Part shown: positions 7,047 through 46,147 of the stretch, one piece after another
How positions within the stretch are numbered: the stretch's first letter is position 1
How the letters are laid out: each line of letters begins with the position of its first letter
Source of the DNA: Gammaproteobacteria bacterium
GTDB taxonomy: Bacteria > Pseudomonadota > Gammaproteobacteria > Steroidobacterales > GCA-2729495
NCBI GenBank assembly: GCA_009692345.1
Contig: SHZI01000004.1
Coordinates: forward strand, 1-56,450
Reading direction: 5' to 3'
Length of the DNA stretch: 56,450 bases
Notes under the pieces: model-generated
The model's database searches: none
Told to the model about the DNA's origin: nothing
Seen by the model: only the letters and a program-made list of their open reading frames with translations
Made by a program: the position numbers and the translations under genes

Positions 7047-10000
7047 GAACCGTCCAGCGTGTTGCAGCCGTTCTGCTGGCCTGCCTGGCTCTGACTGCCC
7101 GGGCGGATGATTCGGAGTTGTTCCTGAGTGGCCCGGCTGCCGGAGTCGCCCGGGCCAACGTCCTCTTCATTATCGATACCTCCGGCAGCATGGACACGCT
7201 GGTGGCGACCCAGGCGACCTACAGCACCAGCCAGACCTTCACGGGTTGCTACGACCGCAACGCGCTGTACTTCTCCGCCACTGCATCAACCCCACCCTGT
7301 GACAGCCCCAACGTCCAGCCGAAGGCGGTCAACCGCTGCGCAGCCTCCCGCCAGCAACTCAACCAGGTGGGTTACTACTCCGACTTGCTCCTGGGTTGGG
7401 ACGTCCTGACGGGGAGCCGCCCGAACGGCGCGCTGGAGTGCGCGAGTGATCGCGGGGTCGATGGCAACGGCTCGGGCAGCCCGGGTTTTGCCGCCAACGG
7501 CCCCGACGAACCCTGGGCCGCGACCGATGCCAGCGAACCAGCCTGGCCCGCTCAGTACACGGTCTATGACGGCAACTGGCTCAACTGGCGCACTAACCCC
7601 CCCACGGTGCAGAAGAGCCGCCTCGACATCGTCAAGGAATCGGTCAACGCCCTGGCGGCCGGCCTGGAGGACGTGAACATCGGTCTGATGCGCTTCAACG
7701 GTAGTGAAGGCGGCGCGGTAATCGCTCCGCTGACCGACATCAACACCTCCCGGACTGCCTTCGTTGCCGCGGTGAACGCCCTGAACCCGGCCGGCAACAC
7801 GCCCCTGTCCGAAACCCTCTACGAAGCGGCCCAGGTCTTTCGGGGTGCCAACGTGGACTTTGGCAATACGGGCCCGGTCCGGAGTGTGGCGGGATCCCGA
7901 GTCGGTAACACGCTCACTTCCCTGCTCTACCGTTCGCCCCTCACCGAGTCCTGCAGCAAGAACTTCATCATCCTGCTGACGGATGGCGAACCGACTGCTG
8001 ACGGCGACGCGGTCAGCAAGATTACCGCCCTGCCGGACTTCGCCTCGGTGGTGGGGACCACCTGCGACGGCACCGGCGAAGGCCGCTGCCTGGACGACCT
8101 CGCGGCCTACCTGGTGCGCCACGACCTGGACGACACCCTCCCCGGCCTGCAGAACGTTGTCACCCACACCATCGGCTTCGAAGCGGACTTCCCCCTGCTC
8201 GTCAGCACGGCGACCCGGGGCGGCGGTGAGTACCACCTGGCTGACAGCACCGCGTCGCTGTCCACGGCGCTGAGCGGCATTGTGCTGTCGATCTTCGACA
8301 ATGCGGCGACTTTCGCCGCGCCCGCCGTGCCGGTGAATGCCTTCAAGCGCAGCCAGAACCTGCATGACGTCTACGTGTCGGTCTTCCAGCCCACGGAAAC
8401 CGCCCGCTGGTTTGGCAACCTCAAGAGGTACCGGTTCTCTGGTGGCCAGCTCGTCGGGAAGGACGATCGCCCTGTGATCGACCCCGTAACGGGACTCTTC
8501 GCCCGGGACGCCTTCAGCTTCTGGTCGGCAACACCGGATGGTGACCGGGTTGCCGAGGGTGGTGCGGCCAGCCGCCTGCCGGCTCCGGCGGTACGGCGCG
8601 TGTTTACCAATCTTTCCGGCACTGCCCTCTCTCTGCTCGACCCCGACGATGCTGGCGTTCAGGCTGCGCTGGCTGCGGTGCCCGTGGCCGAGCGCGCAGC
8701 CGTCATTGAATGGGCTCTGGGCCGGGACGTGGGGGACGTGGATCAGGATGGGAACGTGATGGAAGCCCGCCGGGATCTGGGCGATGCCTTCCACGTCCAG
8801 CCACTGACGGTGCTCTACGGCGAGACTGTCGACAACCCGGACGCCGCCGTGTTCGTGGCCACCAACGATGGCTACCTGCACTCCTTCGAGGCCGCCACGG
8901 GGGTAGAGAACTGGGCCTTCGTTCCCGGCCGGTTACTGCATGGTCTCTACCCTCTCTACCGGAATGCGGCTGCCGCGGCGAAGACCTACGGGCTGGATGG
9001 CGAGATCAACCTGGTCATCAGGAACGATGACGGTCGTCCGGGGCTGTCGGGCAACGAGCAGGCGATCCTCCTCTTTGGCATGGGACGGGGCGGCGATGCG
9101 GTGTATGCCGTCGACGTGACCGACCCGGCTGCACCCGCGCTGCTCTGGGAGAAGAGCAGCAGTGACAGTAGCTTTGCCGACCTCGGCCAGACCTGGTCGC
9201 CGCCGGCGGCTGCGCGGGTCGACATCGGCGGGACCGTCCGGGACGTGGTGGTCTTCGGCGGCGGGTATGACCCGGGCCAGGACCACGGCCCGTTCCGGCA
9301 GGACACGGTCGGCAATGCCATCTACATGGTTGACCTGGCCGATGGCCGCCGGGTGTGGAGCGCCGGTAGTGACGCCGCAGGGGGGCCCCACGATCTCGAA
9401 CTGCCCCGGATGAACTACTCCATTCCCGCCCCGGTGAAGCCGCTGGACCTCAACGGTGACGGCCTGGCTGAGCGCTTCTACGTGGGCGATATGGGCGGGC
9501 AGTTGTGGCGCTTTGACATCGTCAATGGCGAATCGGCGGCAACGCTCGTTGAGGGTGGGGTTCTGGCCTCGCTTGGTGGTGCCGCAGTCGCTACACCCAC
9601 CACTGCAGACCTGCGCCGGTTCTACGCAGCTCCCGACGTGGTACCCGTCATCCTGAACAACCAGCTGCTGATCTCGATCAACATTGGCTCCGGCTATCGG
9701 GGCCACCCGCTGGATACCGGGATTGCCGAGGCCTTCTTCGCCGTCCGGGACTTCAACGTATTCGGCGTCATCGACCGGACTGACTACTCCACGTCGCCGG
9801 TCTCGGTGCATCAGTTGCTCGATATCACCACCGACCTCGAGCCTGAACTGCCATTTGCTGCCGCGGGGTGGCAGCTCCGCCTGAACCAGGGCCCCGGTGA
9901 GAAGGTACTGGGCGAAGCGCTGACGGTGGACAACACCACGTTCTTCACCTCCTTTGCGCCGGGCCAGACACCGAGCGGGTGCGTCAGCGGCGCCGGCATC

Positions 10001-10261
10001 AATCGCCTCTACGCCATCAGTGTCCTCGATGGACGGCTCCGCACGAACGTCGACAGCGGCGTCGACGCGCCCCTGACTCTCGCGGACCGCTCGCGAGTCC
10101 TGAACACAGGGATCCCGGTGACGGATGTGAATCGGCTGAATACGGAGACGGGCCCGACCATCTGCGCGGGGACCCAGTGCCTCACGCCGGAAGACATGGC
10201 GCGGCTGCCGCGGCGCGCCGGGACAAAACGCACCTACTGGTTCCAGCGTGAAGGCCCTTAG
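7043..10261 (+). CDS. pilY1: type IV pilus tip adhesin/assembly protein PilY1
   Basis: The protein has 1072 residues, a signal peptide (cleavage near ARA-DD, residue 21), a von Willebrand A domain whose MIDAS motif is DTSGS at residues 45-49, then a C-terminal PilY1 beta-propeller. The propeller holds the calcium-binding loop DLNGDGLAE followed by VGDMGGQLWRFD, near residues 801-825. PilY1 is secreted, promotes pilus extension with the minor pilins, and mediates surface contact. The start overlaps the preceding stop (ATGA), and the last 14 bp overlap pilE. Confidence 0.95.
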   Translation: MRTVQRVAAVLLACLALTARADDSELFLSGPAAGVARANVLFIIDTSGSMDTLVATQATYSTSQTFTGCYDRNALYFSATASTPPCDSPNVQPKAVNRCAASRQQLNQVGYYSDLLLGWDVLTGSRPNGALECASDRGVDGNGSGSPGFAANGPDEPWAATDASEPAWPAQYTVYDGNWLNWRTNPPTVQKSRLDIVKESVNALAAGLEDVNIGLMRFNGSEGGAVIAPLTDINTSRTAFVAAVNALNPAGNTPLSETLYEAAQVFRGANVDFGNTGPVRSVAGSRVGNTLTSLLYRSPLTESCSKNFIILLTDGEPTADGDAVSKITALPDFASVVGTTCDGTGEGRCLDDLAAYLVRHDLDDTLPGLQNVVTHTIGFEADFPLLVSTATRGGGEYHLADSTASLSTALSGIVLSIFDNAATFAAPAVPVNAFKRSQNLHDVYVSVFQPTETARWFGNLKRYRFSGGQLVGKDDRPVIDPVTGLFARDAFSFWSATPDGDRVAEGGAASRLPAPAVRRVFTNLSGTALSLLDPDDAGVQAALAAVPVAERAAVIEWALGRDVGDVDQDGNVMEARRDLGDAFHVQPLTVLYGETVDNPDAAVFVATNDGYLHSFEAATGVENWAFVPGRLLHGLYPLYRNAAAAAKTYGLDGEINLVIRNDDGRPGLSGNEQAILLFGMGRGGDAVYAVDVTDPAAPALLWEKSSSDSSFADLGQTWSPPAAARVDIGGTVRDVVVFGGGYDPGQDHGPFRQDTVGNAIYMVDLADGRRVWSAGSDAAGGPHDLELPRMNYSIPAPVKPLDLNGDGLAERFYVGDMGGQLWRFDIVNGESAATLVEGGVLASLGGAAVATPTTADLRRFYAAPDVVPVILNNQLLISINIGSGYRGHPLDTGIAEAFFAVRDFNVFGVIDRTDYSTSPVSVHQLLDITTDLEPELPFAAAGWQLRLNQGPGEKVLGEALTVDNTTFFTSFAPGQTPSGCVSGAGINRLYAISVLDGRLRTNVDSGVDAPLTLADRSRVLNTGIPVTDVNRLNTETGPTICAGTQCLTPEDMARLPRRAGTKRTYWFQREGP

Positions 10262-10718
10262 TCAGCCCCTCGGTAAGGGTTTCACACTGGTCGAACTCAT
10301 GATCGTCGTGCTGATCATGGGCATCCTGGCGACCGCCAGCGTGGCGGGCTACCGGCAGTACGTCCAGCGGGCAGGCCGGGTGGACGCCACCACTGCCCTC
10401 CTCCGGGTCTCAACCGCCCAGGAGCGCTTCTACCTGCAGAACAACCAGTACGCGACCACCGCTGCGGAACTGGCCGACCCTCCGCCCGGTGGCCTGGGTA
10501 CGGCAGAAACCAGCCTTGGGCTGTATGACCTCTCTGTGGCGCCTGCGGCGGGCGGCGCCACGGTGGGTTACACGGCGACCGCCACAGCTTCAGCCAGCGG
10601 CTCCCAGCGGGACGATGACGACTGCCAGGTCTTCACCATCGACCAGAGCGGCAAGCGCAGTGCCAGCGACTCCGCTGGCACCAGTAGCGCCGCAGTCACT
10701 GCCCGCTGCTGGCGTTAG
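10248..10718 (+). CDS. pilE: PilE-type type IV pilin
   Basis: The 156-residue product begins with GTG inside the end of pilY1. The prepilin cleavage site is KG|FTLVELMIVVLIMGILA, followed by YRQYVQRAGRVDATTALLRV and the QERFYLQNNQYAT segment typical of PilE minor pilins. A C-terminal Cys pair (DDCQVF and ARCWR) could form the D-region disulfide. This gene closes the minor-pilin operon. Its last 18 bp, including the stop, are repeated once directly downstream, and its 3' end overlaps lspA on the other strand by 23 bp. Confidence 0.92.
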   Translation: MKALSQPLGKGFTLVELMIVVLIMGILATASVAGYRQYVQRAGRVDATTALLRVSTAQERFYLQNNQYATTAAELADPPPGGLGTAETSLGLYDLSVAPAAGGATVGYTATATASASGSQRDDDDCQVFTIDQSGKRSASDSAGTSSAAVTARCWR

Positions 10719-11241
10719 GCCCGCTGCTAGCGCTAGGCCCGCCGTCCGCAGCCGACGGTTGCAGCCGCCTGCCTTCCAGAAAGAAGCTGTCAATGAGCAG
10801 CAGGATCACGCCCAGCGTGATCGCGGAGTCGGCCACATTGAAGGCGGGAAACGCCCAGTGCTCGTAGTGAACCAGGATGAAGTCCACGACGTAGCCGTGT
10901 TCGAGGCGATCGATCACATTGCCGATGGCGCCGCCCAGCACCAGGACCAGCCCCAGCGGCACCACGACCCGCTCCGGGGGCTGGCGGCTGAACCACCAGA
11001 GGAGGATGCCGCTCACTACCACTGCCACGCCGGTAAAGAACCAGTTCTGCCAGCCTGAGGCACTGGCCAGGAAGCTGAACGCGGCGCCCGTATTGTGCAG
11101 GCGAACCAGGTCGAAGTACGGCAGCACAGGCAGGTGCTCAAAGAGCGCAAACGACCCCATGATGAGGCGCTTCGTGACCTGGTCAATGGCGATAACCAGA
11201 ACGCTGACGAGGAGCCAGAGGAGACTCGGTCTGTGGCTCAT
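10696..11241 (-). CDS. lspA: lipoprotein signal peptidase LspA (signal peptidase II)
   Basis: The protein has 181 residues and four hydrophobic segments. Conserved blocks are IDQVTKRL near residue 19, [10 protein letters not shown] near 49, [15 protein letters not shown] near 107-121, and FNVADSAI near 134. The aspartic-protease pair is Asp120 and Asp138 by comparison with known LspA. It cleaves prolipoproteins in the inner membrane. The C-terminal tail (about residues 161-181) is Ser/Gly-rich with [12 protein letters not shown]; this duplication is the antisense reading of the duplicated pilE 3' end. It overlaps ileS by 4 bp. Confidence 0.96.
10701..10736. repeat. 18-bp tandem duplication of the pilE 3' end
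   Basis: The last 18 bp of pilE, gcccgctgctggcgttag, are followed immediately by gcccgctgctagcgctag, with two mismatches. The first copy ends exactly on the pilE stop codon. On the minus strand both copies code for the LspA tail. Confidence 0.85.
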
Positions 11242-41774: not shown

Positions 41775-42533
41775 CTACTCCCCTACCGCCGCCTCCACCT
41801 CCGCCACCAGTTTCGCCATCCGCGCTTCCAGTTCCTGACGCAGGCGCCCCAGGTCGTCCGTGCCGGACCCCGGGGGAATCCGGAAAGGCTCGGCCACCGC
41901 GATAGCCACTTTCGCGAACGGCAGGGGCACGATGAAGCGGTCCCAGCTGTTCCAGCGCATGCAGGGCCTGGCCGCGTAGGCGATCAGGATGATGGGGACC
42001 TTGGTCATGCGCGCCAGCAGGATCGTGCCGGTCTTGAACTCGTGGATGGGGCCGGTCGGCCCGTCGGGCGTGATGACCAGCGAGGTTTGCTGGCCCACCA
42101 GCACGTCGTACATGTCCTTCAGCGCCTGGCCAGCCGACCGCTTCGACGAGCCCCGGAGAACGCCAGCGCCCCAGCGCCGGATGATGGCCGCCGGCACTTC
42201 ACCACTCACCGACGGGCTGGTCAGAAAGGAGATCTTCAGGCCGTTCCGGACCTGCATCAGGAGGAACCTGCCGCAGAAGATCTGCATCTGGTGCCAGTAG
42301 GACACTATCGCGGCGGCCTCACTGGCCTGGAGGCGCTCCAGATGCTCAGCGCCGCGGACCGGCAGCAGCCGGCAGGTCGCCGCCAGAAGAGCCAGGATCC
42401 CCCGGGCCAGAAAAGTGATCATGGCGTACCAGACACGCCGACCAGCAGACATCCGCCGCCGCGAGGACCCGGGAAGACCGGTCGGGCGAAAGCGCTTGGC
42501 GCGCTGGCTGGCTGCATAGGGTTGCTCGCTCAC
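41775..42533 (-). CDS. DUF374/LPLAT-family acyltransferase
   Basis: The product has 252 residues from a GTG; an ATG 27 codons in is an alternative. A hydrophobic N-terminal helix (ILALLAATCRLLPV) precedes the acyltransferase region, with SYWHQMQIF in place of the usual HxxxxD block, GSSKRSAGQALKDM, and VITPDGPTGPIHEFKTG near residue 155. DUF374 proteins are thought to be lysophospholipid- or lipid A-type acyltransferases of the inner membrane. It is divergent from the P450 gene, with only 20 bp between start codons. Confidence 0.82.
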   Translation of the reverse strand: MSEQPYAASQRAKRFRPTGLPGSSRRRMSAGRRVWYAMITFLARGILALLAATCRLLPVRGAEHLERLQASEAAAIVSYWHQMQIFCGRFLLMQVRNGLKISFLTSPSVSGEVPAAIIRRWGAGVLRGSSKRSAGQALKDMYDVLVGQQTSLVITPDGPTGPIHEFKTGTILLARMTKVPIILIAYAARPCMRWNSWDRFIVPLPFAKVAIAVAEPFRIPPGSGTDDLGRLRQELEARMAKLVAEVEAAVGE

Positions 42534-42553: not shown

Positions 42554-43924
42554 ATGAAGTCCCGTGAGAATGATTCCCCGGGTTCCGTCCGGGATGGCGC
42601 CGGGGAGCCTGGCCTGCCGGACGGTCCCGCTGAATTCCACACCATTGGGCCGGATCAGCAGACGTTCGCGGCCCTGGGCCGCTGGGTGCCTGAGTACGGC
42701 GACCTGTTCTGCGTGCAGTCCAGGGATCGCCGTGATCCCAGTCTGGTCGTCAGCAGCCCCGACTACCTCAAGCACATCCTGTTGAGCAATCACGAGAACT
42801 ACGCCAAGGGCGTTGGCTTCGAGCGGGTCAAGATGCTGCTGGGGAACGGCATCATCGTGAGTGATGGCGAGGACTGGCGCCGCCAGCGGACGATGATGCA
42901 ACCGGGCTTCAGCCGGGCAAACATTGCCCGCTTGTCGCAGCCCATGCGCGGCCAGAACCAGGCACTCCGGGACCAGTGGCGCCTGCTGGCGGATACCGGC
43001 CAGACCATCGACATCACAACCGCCATGAGCCGGCTGGGGCTGGAAATCATCCTCCGCTCCATATTCAGCAGTGACCTTGACCGGATGGTTGACCAGGAGG
43101 GCGGCAATCCGTTTGCCTTTCTGGCAGAGGACACCACACGGGATATCCAGACTGCAGTGCGCTTTCGCAACCTGGCGCGACTCACCCTCTGGCTCGTGGC
43201 AGACCGGCGCGGGACCGGCGAGCGGCCGTTCGATTTCCTGTCCCTGCTCATGGATGCCAGGGACCGCAAGTCCGGTGCTGGCATGACCGACAAAGAACTG
43301 CTGGACGAGGTCAATACGCTGATCATTGCCGGGCACGAGACCTCCGCAGGCACCCTCAACTGGGTCTGGTACCTGCTGAGTCAGCACCCGGATGTCGAGG
43401 AGCGCCTCCTGACAGAACTCGCCCGGGTAACGCCGGGAGACGACTTCAGCTTTGATCAGCTGATGGATCTCAACTACACAGCCTGCGTTCTCAAGGAGAC
43501 ACTGCGCCTGTATCCCCCGGTCTGGCTGTTCTCTCGCCGTGCCAGGCAAGAGGATCACCTGGGGGAGTTTCGGGTGCCGGCCGGCGCCCATATCTTCATC
43601 GCGCCCTACTTCCTCCATCGGCGCCCGGCACTGTGGCCGGATCCGGAACGCTTTGACCCCGACCGCTTCGATGAGTCCCGGTCACCTCCGGTCGACCGGT
43701 TCGCCTTCATACCGTTTTCGGCCGGGGCACGCCGTTGCATTGGTGACTACTTCTCCTTCGTCGAGATGCAGATGCATCTGGCCCTGCTCGCGCCGCGCTT
43801 CGAACTCAGCCTGGAGGTACAATCTTCCCTGGGGCCCAGCGAGCCCATTACCCTTGATCCGGCAGTGAACCTGCGCACGCTCCACAGCATCCACCTCAAG
43901 GTCCGGCATCGAAATGCCCCCTGA
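42554..43924 (+). CDS. cytochrome P450
   Basis: From the ATG at 42554 the protein has 456 residues. P450 landmarks are complete: I-helix AGHETSAGTL near residue 259, ETLRLYPP near 315 (ExxR), the PERFDPDRF segment, and the heme loop FSAGARRCIGDYF with the cysteine ligand near 395. No reductase or ferredoxin is fused or adjacent. The style (HENYAKG, RRQRTMMQPGFS) is of the soluble CYP102/CYP110-like, often fatty-acid-oxidising type. It overlaps the fatty-acyl-AMP ligase gene by 11 bp. A TAGAAT hexamer 8 bp before the ATG suggests a very short leader. Confidence 0.93.
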   Translation: MKSRENDSPGSVRDGAGEPGLPDGPAEFHTIGPDQQTFAALGRWVPEYGDLFCVQSRDRRDPSLVVSSPDYLKHILLSNHENYAKGVGFERVKMLLGNGIIVSDGEDWRRQRTMMQPGFSRANIARLSQPMRGQNQALRDQWRLLADTGQTIDITTAMSRLGLEIILRSIFSSDLDRMVDQEGGNPFAFLAEDTTRDIQTAVRFRNLARLTLWLVADRRGTGERPFDFLSLLMDARDRKSGAGMTDKELLDEVNTLIIAGHETSAGTLNWVWYLLSQHPDVEERLLTELARVTPGDDFSFDQLMDLNYTACVLKETLRLYPPVWLFSRRARQEDHLGEFRVPAGAHIFIAPYFLHRRPALWPDPERFDPDRFDESRSPPVDRFAFIPFSAGARRCIGDYFSFVEMQMHLALLAPRFELSLEVQSSLGPSEPITLDPAVNLRTLHSIHLKVRHRNAP

Positions 43925-45893
43925 AGCAATGGCCTCAGACCTGCCCACCACGCTAGTCGACGTTCTCGCCACTCGCGGTGACTCGAACCGGCGCATCCAC
44001 TATCTGGATGGACAGAATGACCGGCGCAGCGTCACGTTTAGCGGCCTGCGCTCTGCCGCGGTCGGCGTGCTGTTCCACCTCCAGGCATTTGGCGCCCAAC
44101 CCGGCGACAGGGTGATCCTGCACACCTCCAGCAATGAGCAGTTCCTGGACGGCTTCTGGGCCTGTCTCCTTGGGGGGCTGGTGCCGGTGCCGGTGGCCGT
44201 CGGTATCAGCGACGATCATCGGCTGAAGCTTCTGCAGGTTTTCGCCACGCTGGGCAATCCACTCGTCTACACGGAGGAAGGTCAGAGGAGCCGGCTCCAG
44301 GACTATGGCAGGGCAAGCGGCACTGCAGGCCAGGTTGATGCAGTGAACAGGCGGTCGCTGTTCGTCGAGCAGGTTACAGACATTTCCCGCCCGGGGCGGG
44401 AACACCCGGTGATGCCCGATGACGTTGCGTTCATTCAGTTTTCCTCGGGCTCCACGAGCACGCCAAAGGGCGTGTTACTGACTCACCGGAACCTGCTGAC
44501 CAATATCCGCGCAATGATTGAGGGCGCACGCTTCACTGATCAGGACATTTCCTTAAGCTGGATGCCGCTGACTCACGACATGGGCCTTATCGGGCTGCAC
44601 CTCTGCATGCTCACCGCGAACATCGAGCACACCATCATGGACACCCGGGTGTTCAGCCGGCGCCCACTGCTCTGGCTCGAGGAGGCCAGCCGGCTGCGGG
44701 CCACGGTCCTGTGCTCCCCGAATTTCGGTTACAAGCACTTTCTCAAAGTCTATGACTCCAAGGGTGTCAACGGCCTCGATCTGTCCGCTGTACGCCTGCT
44801 GATCAACGGTGCCGAGCCCATTTCGATTCCACTTTGCGAACGGTTCATGCAGGAGATGCAGCGCTTCGGGCTGGCGCGCACCGCAATGTATCCGGTCTAC
44901 GGGCTGGCCGAAGCGAGCCTCGCAGTGACACTGCCAGGGCCCGGGCATGCGTATCGTTCGGTGCTGGTGGAACGCGCGTCACTTGCAGTGGGCAGCACCG
45001 TCGCCCTTGCTGAGCCCGGTACTGCCAGCGGACTTGAACTCATGACTGTGGGCAAGCCGGTCCGCGACTGCGAGCTCCGGGTAGCCGGCGACGACGACCT
45101 GCCGCTCGCGGCAGGCACTGTCGGGCACCTGCAGATCCGGGGGGGCAACGTGACGAGCGGCTATGTGGGACTGCCCGCGGACCAGCAGCCGCTAACCGCT
45201 GATGGCTGGCTGCGCACGGGGGATCTCGGCTTCCTGACCGTGCCGGAAGGTGATCTGGTGGTCACCGGCCGGCAGAAGGAGATCATCTTTGTCAACGGCC
45301 TGAACTACTACCCCAATGACCTGGAGGCCATTGCCGAAAAGTACGCAGGCGTAGAGCTGGGCAAGATGGCCGCGGCAGGCTCCCGCAAGGCCGGCGGCGA
45401 GGACGAAGAGCTGCTGCTGTTCCTCCTCAATCGCGGCTCAGCTGCGGATTTCCTGCCCGTGGCCAATCAACTGCGGCGGCAAATTACCGAACACACCGGA
45501 CTGAACGTGGCCCACGTGATTCCAGTCAGAAATCTGCCCAAGACCACCAGCGGCAAGCTGCAGCGGGGCAAGCTTGCCCAGGCGTATGCCGACGGCGAGT
45601 ACGATGCGGTGGTGGCGGAGCTGGATGCGCTGGCGGTAGCGAGCGCCCGCAAGGCGGCAGCGGGCGGCTCAGACCTGCAGACAAAGATCCGGCACCTCTG
45701 CGCCTCGGTCATCACCGACCGGGAGATTGGCCTGGATGATGACTTTTTCGAGCTTGGCGTAAGCTCATTATCGCTGGCCCAGATCCATGAGCGCATCGAC
45801 GAGGAGTATCCGGGTCAGCTCGATGTGGAGGATCTGTTTACGAAATCCACAATCCGGGCTGTCGCGGCGCACCTTGAGGAGAAGGGCCTATGA
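43914..45893 (+). CDS. fatty-acyl-AMP ligase with C-terminal acyl carrier domain
   Basis: The 659-residue protein has an adenylation domain (FSSGSTSTPKGVLLTH near residue 178; SWMPLTHDMGLIG; VYGLAEASLAV; LRTGDLGF; GRQKEIIFVNG). The domain order and PLTHDMGLIG are typical of fatty-acyl-AMP ligases (FAAL) rather than CoA ligases. Residues about 585-659 form a carrier domain with FFELGVSSLSL, whose Ser is the probable phosphopantetheine site. It should activate a fatty acid and load it on its own carrier, probably for the coupled P450 or a later enzyme. Confidence 0.9.
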   Translation: MPPEAMASDLPTTLVDVLATRGDSNRRIHYLDGQNDRRSVTFSGLRSAAVGVLFHLQAFGAQPGDRVILHTSSNEQFLDGFWACLLGGLVPVPVAVGISDDHRLKLLQVFATLGNPLVYTEEGQRSRLQDYGRASGTAGQVDAVNRRSLFVEQVTDISRPGREHPVMPDDVAFIQFSSGSTSTPKGVLLTHRNLLTNIRAMIEGARFTDQDISLSWMPLTHDMGLIGLHLCMLTANIEHTIMDTRVFSRRPLLWLEEASRLRATVLCSPNFGYKHFLKVYDSKGVNGLDLSAVRLLINGAEPISIPLCERFMQEMQRFGLARTAMYPVYGLAEASLAVTLPGPGHAYRSVLVERASLAVGSTVALAEPGTASGLELMTVGKPVRDCELRVAGDDDLPLAAGTVGHLQIRGGNVTSGYVGLPADQQPLTADGWLRTGDLGFLTVPEGDLVVTGRQKEIIFVNGLNYYPNDLEAIAEKYAGVELGKMAAAGSRKAGGEDEELLLFLLNRGSAADFLPVANQLRRQITEHTGLNVAHVIPVRNLPKTTSGKLQRGKLAQAYADGEYDAVVAELDALAVASARKAAAGGSDLQTKIRHLCASVITDREIGLDDDFFELGVSSLSLAQIHERIDEEYPGQLDVEDLFTKSTIRAVAAHLEEKGL

Positions 45894-46147
45894 CCCTGAA
45901 CATTCCCGGCCACCAGGCACTCCGCAAGATCCTCGTCCTGAATCCCAAGGGTGGCTCGGGCCAGACGACGCTCGCCATGAATCTGGCCGGGTACTTCGCC
46001 TCGCTGGGACGGCCCGTCGCCCACGCCATCCTGGTCCCGGTGCTCCCGTCAGCCATCGATATCCATGCGGCGTCCCGGTCGATTGCCGACCTTCTGCTGG
46101 TTGCGAACGCGATGCAGAAGGTACCTGCAGAAGGTACCGGACCTTAG
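45890..46147 (+). pseudogene. ParA-like ATPase remnant
   Basis: This 85-codon frame overlaps the previous stop (ATGA). It starts like a ParA/MinD-family ATPase, KILVLNPKGGSGQTTLAMNLAGYFASLG, but the signature lysine of the P-loop (GKTT) is Gln. It then jumps to HAILVPVLPSAIDIHAASRSIADLLLVAN, which in intact relatives lies much later, so 60 or more codons with the Walker A' and B Asp are missing. The rest of the C-terminus is replaced by sequence containing a 13-bp duplication (gcagaaggtacct). It is almost certainly non-functional. Confidence 0.8.

Follow-up and report, generated by a model that had tools for sequence, protein, structure and literature searches.

The stretch of DNA analysed here, which we call the window, comprises 56,450 nucleotides from a Gammaproteobacteria bacterium of the order Steroidobacterales (contig SHZI01000004.1), and it contains a cytochrome P450 gene and a gene for a fatty-acyl-AMP ligase (FAAL) fused to its own carrier domain. 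The P450 (456 amino acids, plus strand, start ATG at 42554 and stop at 43924) and the ligase (659 amino acids, plus strand, 43914-45893) are arranged head to tail with overlapping ends, as a first-pass annotation had described, and we confirm that both open reading frames are intact. The 11-bp overlap given there is correct if the first ligase ATG (43914) is used, whereas a start at Met6 (43929) would leave a 4-bp gap. Met6 aligns with the start codon of the closest relative (L028) and is better conserved than the first methionine, and the exact length of the overlap depends on which of the two is the start. We find that the unit is larger than this pair and also includes a divergent gene (minus strand, 41775-42533, GTG start) for a DUF374 acyltransferase of 252 amino acids, whose start codon lies 20 bp from that of the P450. 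We refer to the three genes together as the triad.

Catalytic signatures of the three proteins

In the ligase, Pfam places an AMP-binding domain at residues 31-417 (approximately 44004-45164) and a PP-binding carrier domain at residues 592-654 (47 bits; approximately 45687-45875). Every core adenylation motif is retained, and the carrier motif GVSSL bears the phosphopantetheine serine, Ser618 (codon 45765-45767), which aligns with the carrier serine of McyG and is invariant in homologues. The best PDB matches are FAALs, among them the FAAL-acyl carrier protein (ACP) McyG. From 2e-84 to about 4e-32 the matches are of the FAAL type (McyG, Legionella FAAL, E. coli FAAL, FadD32, FadD28 and FadD23), and 4-coumarate:coenzyme A (CoA) ligases enter the list only from 4e-28. 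FAALs pass the acyl group to a carrier and do not accept CoA; in the E. coli enzyme (EcFAAL), the bulky residues W224, M231 and F279 close the CoA pocket, and T252-R258 form a FAAL-specific helix (PMC8460268). Aligned to EcFAAL (3pbk), the window ligase has W216, M223 and F271 at the pocket positions and T244-R250 at the helix, and W216, M223, F271, T244, R249 and R250 are unchanged across 15 ligase homologues. By this sequence test, the window ligase is a FAAL-ACP didomain.

The P450 matches the Pfam p450 family (E=1.3e-73) and satisfies the class signatures FxxGxRxCxG, ExxR and AGxxT through an intact heme motif FSAGARRCIG (Cys395, codon 43736-43738), KETLR and the I-helix AGHETS; its PERF motif is also intact. 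It is the sole P450 in the 2.34-Mb genome. Its AlphaFold model (pLDDT 80) resembles CYP97, CYP184A1 (7wzm, a complex with oleic acid) and BM3. None of the 50 closest PDB structures, which are 23-29% identical to it, reaches 40% identity, in a comparison that covers only CYPs with solved structures. Judged by this model and these identities, the protein fits a fatty-chain oxidase outside the CYP families that have solved structures.

The divergent gene product matches Pfam DUF374 with 57.7 bits against a curated cut-off of 26.8. LpxJ belongs to this family; it is an acyltransferase that acts late in lipid A synthesis, adding a secondary acyl chain (PMC6148475), at the 3'-linked chain, from an acyl-ACP donor (PMC6286764). 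Residues W60, H61, D86, D132, W172 and D173 are essential in Rickettsia typhi LpxJ, and His84 is dispensable (PMC6148475). The window protein has W80, H81, D157, W197 and D198 at the positions of W60, H61, D132, W172 and D173, and these are kept in 71-72 of 72 homologues. At the position of D86, the window protein and its closest relatives have a serine (Ser110 in the window), and the residue is Asp in 63 of the 72 homologues; because this essential Asp is replaced, we call the window protein LpxJ-like rather than LpxJ. The position of His84 is a serine in nearly all DUF374 homologues, the window protein included. The AlphaFold model (pLDDT 82) has a lysophospholipid acyltransferase (LPLAT) fold, with LpxM (5knk) as the best PDB match, followed by PlsC and PatA, all at moderate TM-scores.

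Linkage and co-occurrence in relatives

Three congeneric relatives, three relatives from the same family and members of several other families in the order keep the arrangement DUF374 (divergent), P450, FAAL-ACP, which also holds for the majority of 80 named genome loci. Distant P450/ligase pairs persist in several families at 42-50% protein identity, and the flanking genes are swapped between families while the triad is retained. In a pooled set of 73 non-redundant loci (the 80 named loci, the window and an order-level set, restricted to those whose upstream sequence extends for 3 kb or more), the P450 is present in 61 and DUF374 in 66. Linked DUF374 genes are divergent in 72 of 74 cases, and in 72 P450/ligase pairs the two genes are most often -4 or -1 bp apart and almost never 65 bp or more. 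A sample assembled from the P450 side gave 30 fetched P450-centred loci, and in all 30 the FAAL adjoins the P450. The coupling of P450 and ligase is thus general and far from chance. Coupled expression of the two genes, which had been proposed from the window alone, is strongly supported by conservation and co-occurrence, and the unlinked arrangement in relatives that would have spoken against it is not what these loci contain.

Co-occurrence was counted in 99 relative genomes, 16 with FAAL and 83 without. Members of the P450 clade were found in 13 of the 16 and in 0 of the 83, and DUF374 in 16 of 16 versus 3 of 83 (Fisher p approximately 1e-13 and 1e-15, respectively, uncorrected for phylogeny). 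An order-wide search found the P450 clade in 180 of 396 genomes. Inside single genera, the triad genes are jointly present or jointly absent, and several genomes of the window's own genus are without all three, including G004 (96% complete), G006 (88%) and others that are less complete. Could the three genes simply be a frozen neighbourhood, inherited vertically with no common pathway? Distances in the three genes correlate with one another and with those in a neighbouring housekeeping gene, as such a neighbourhood would predict, and since the housekeeping gene correlates about equally well, we discarded gene-tree agreement as proof of co-evolution. Against a frozen neighbourhood, the three genes are strictly correlated in their presence and absence, even inside single genera; the flanks differ between families while the triad persists; and one genome (G049) retains DUF374 although it lies on a separate contig. 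Because the triad genes are gained and lost together, plain neighbourhood inertia is insufficient as an explanation, and we regard this alternative as highly improbable.

Proposed pathway and its alternatives

We propose, with the chances evenly balanced, that the three genes form one lipid-tailoring unit combining FAAL loading, oxidation of the tethered chain by the P450 and LpxJ-like transfer to an outer-membrane lipid, most likely lipid A. The FAAL would use ATP to activate a free fatty acid as acyl-AMP and attach the acyl group to the phosphopantetheine arm of the carrier at its own C-terminus, which would keep the chain away from the CoA pool. The P450, receiving electrons from a general ferredoxin (the genome encodes general Fer2 ferredoxins), would then oxidise the carrier-tethered chain, most likely by hydroxylation. 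Finally, the LpxJ-like enzyme would transfer the modified chain from the carrier to the outer-membrane lipid, where it would most likely become a secondary acyl chain of lipid A. What we observe for the triad is linkage, co-occurrence, catalytic signatures and folds; the order of steps, the tethered substrate, lipid A as acceptor and any chain length or position of oxidation we infer. Loading and transfer are suggested by family knowledge and co-occurrence, and carrier-bound oxidation by the coupling of the genes and by precedent. Use of the P450/ligase product by the divergent DUF374 enzyme, raised as an option in the first-pass annotation, is strongly supported by conservation and co-occurrence. 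More tentatively, and at somewhat under even probability, the system may acylate an outer-membrane lipid (lipid A or other) from free fatty acids through the FAAL carrier, bypassing fatty acid synthesis, with the LpxJ-like transferase inserting a P450-oxidised chain.

Accessory genes in relatives point to carrier priming and lipopolysaccharide (LPS). In 15 loci, DUF374 and the P450 are separated by a gene resembling phosphopantetheinyl transferases (PPTases; of four full-length members scanned, only one scores above the Pfam cut-off); a divergent LpxL-like gene, convergent to the FAAL and less than 100 bp away, is found in 18 loci; and other relatives carry GT9 heptosyltransferase and ArnC/ArnT-like genes upstream of the triad. 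All of these are absent at the window itself. No polyketide synthase or nonribosomal peptide synthetase genes recur near the triad in relatives, so that the earlier statement that none lies nearby also holds there and such a context was rejected. The membership of LpxJ in DUF374 (PMC6148475) and the LPS-type genes (LpxL-like, heptosyltransferase and ArnC/ArnT-like) that adjoin the triad in relatives favour a membrane modification, one of the products first suggested.

Several observations weigh against the proposed pathway or its lipid A end point. In the window's DUF374 clade, a Ser replaces the Asp that is essential in LpxJ. LPS genes are missing around the triad in the window, where propionyl-CoA genes, DUF411 and DedA-type genes are found instead. 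The number of LpxL-family genes is the same regardless of triad presence. No dedicated redox partner was found in the conserved neighbourhood of the triad, and much of the gene-tree agreement among FAAL, P450 and DUF374 is plain vertical descent. In addition, the acyltransferase may accept unoxidised chains, because several lineages without a functional P450 keep FAAL and DUF374: the P450 is lost or broken at G045, G091, G072 (a remnant), L096, L098, L100 (a remnant), L108 and L112. These lineages suggest that ligase and acyltransferase form the core and that the P450 is a dispensable tailoring step.

The first three of these points are also arguments for an acceptor other than lipid A, such as a phospholipid, a glycolipid or a small secreted molecule, reached through the same activation and tethered oxidation. 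So is the breadth of the LPLAT fold: the fold search places PlsC and PatA almost as near as LpxM. The characterised bacterial DUF374 enzymes that we found in the literature are, however, LpxJ lipid A acyltransferases (PMC6148475, PMC6286764), and the LPS-type genes recurrent beside the triad in relatives likewise speak for lipid A; we consider another acceptor somewhat unlikely. A replacement of LpxM by the DUF374 enzyme was considered and is unsupported, as most relatives have one strong LpxL-family gene with or without the triad.

The P450 could also act first, on a free fatty acid or another small lipid, with the FAAL then activating the oxidised acid and no oxidation taking place on the carrier. 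The fold of the P450 is like that of the free fatty-acid hydroxylases BM3 and CYP184A1, and the FAAL/DUF374 loci that are without a P450 imply that it is not required between the two other steps. This order of events is nevertheless improbable in our estimation, given that the P450 is tightly coupled to the carrier-encoding gene, most of the junctions measuring -4 or -1 bp, that one locus (L118) has an apparent P450-FAAL-ACP fusion, and that there is precedent for oxidation of acyl-ACP: BioI (CYP107H1) is a P450 that oxidises a carrier-bound fatty chain in biotin synthesis. BioI differs in working with the general ACP, in cleaving the chain and in lying among biotin genes, and no biotin genes recur around the triad.

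Known counterparts and variant loci

Every part of the triad is of a known kind, and the combination is apparently undescribed. In the open-access literature we found no description of a module of FAAL, P450 and acyltransferase, nor of a P450 or a FAAL with lipid A, and one may exist elsewhere. If the proposed pathway is correct, these would be, to our knowledge, the first P450 and the first FAAL in lipid A biosynthesis; a large group of environmental Gammaproteobacteria would modify the outer membrane with oxidised fatty acids from the free pool, and a subfamily of DUF374 would gain a new function. P450 chemistry would then be tied to lipid A, and the triad would be the acyl-chain counterpart of the glycine system AlmEFG. 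In Vibrio cholerae, AlmEFG places glycine on lipid A by means of an AMP-ligase, a carrier and a relative of lipid A acyltransferases, and this counterpart makes the logic of FAAL, carrier and acyltransferase plausible; it differs in having a separate glycine carrier and no oxygenase. With only two or three proteins, the triad also offers a testable setting for carrier-bound oxidation by a P450.

The LpxJ proteins of Rickettsia, Helicobacter, Campylobacter and Wolinella share with the window DUF374 protein the Pfam family, the W-H, D and W-D residues and the LPLAT fold, and by analogy an acyl-ACP donor may be common to both. They differ at the essential Asp86 and dispensable His84 positions, both Ser in the window, and the accounts of LpxJ (PMC6148475, PMC6286764) link it to neither a ligase nor a P450. 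TamA of the tambjamine system is a FAAL-ACP didomain, and the neighbouring TamT is predicted to oxidise the fatty acyl chain tethered to it (PMC5939613). Like the window ligase, it combines an adenylation domain fused to its own carrier with a neighbouring oxidising enzyme. TamT, however, is a flavin adenine dinucleotide (FAD) dehydrogenase, and the chain is released by reductive amination as a fatty amine within a large natural-product cluster, whereas the triad has a P450 as oxidant and an acyltransferase as partner. AcpXL and LpxXL, a dedicated carrier and acyltransferase for a very-long-chain acyl group of lipid A (PMC5613085), resemble the triad in that a special lipid A chain is served by its own carrier and acyltransferase, and LpxN and LpxO provide lipid A with hydroxylated secondary chains (PMC3178793). 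Elongation enzymes supply the chains of AcpXL. The dioxygenase LpxO works on lipid A that is already complete, and the donor for LpxN is 3-hydroxyacyl-ACP; unlike the triad, these systems are described without a FAAL or P450.

Downstream of the ligase, an open reading frame of 85 amino acids resembling ParA/MinD (plus strand, 45890-46147) overlaps the ligase stop by 4 bp (ATGA). Compared with the proteins of three congeners (265-268 amino acids), it lacks two internal segments, and its Walker A motif has changed from GKTT to GQTT (Lys to Gln), marking a decayed gene. It is probably a companion in the same genus only and not part of the chemistry.

Variant loci were also seen among the relatives. 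At L118 (6606-9950), P450 and FAAL-ACP lie in one frame of 1114 amino acids, joined by a linker of approximately 20-25 residues with no stop, possibly a natural fusion or an error of the metagenome-assembled genome. Apparent P450-FAAL fusions of 900-1650 amino acids at L030, L032, L033 and L034 were rejected, their N-terminal part being an out-of-frame P450 region with the true P450 in another frame, as was one at L113, where the genes are joined by an unresolved stretch (X in the translation). P450 remnants stand next to intact FAAL and DUF374 genes at L037 (11572-11988) and L100 (2824-3455), where decay is ongoing. A radical SAM/SPASM gene occupies the usual place of the P450 beside FAAL-ACP at L052 (6630-9947), L075 (6616-9947) and L102 (6540-9953), and the genomes of L075 and L102 carry a P450-type locus as well. 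In the Woeseiaceae-type loci L035, L037, L038, L039, L040, L101 and L116, a gene for FabH (ketoacyl-ACP synthase III) directly follows the FAAL, overlapping it or at most 28 bp away. At the P450-less locus L112, a gene (9959-10744) begins at the FAAL stop, and its N-terminus appears by eye similar to 2-keto-4-pentenoate hydratase. Finally, a contig of G000 (C27:230-7756) has a weak PPTase match and a divergent LpxL-like gene, possibly belonging to a separate aryl-polyene-like cluster.
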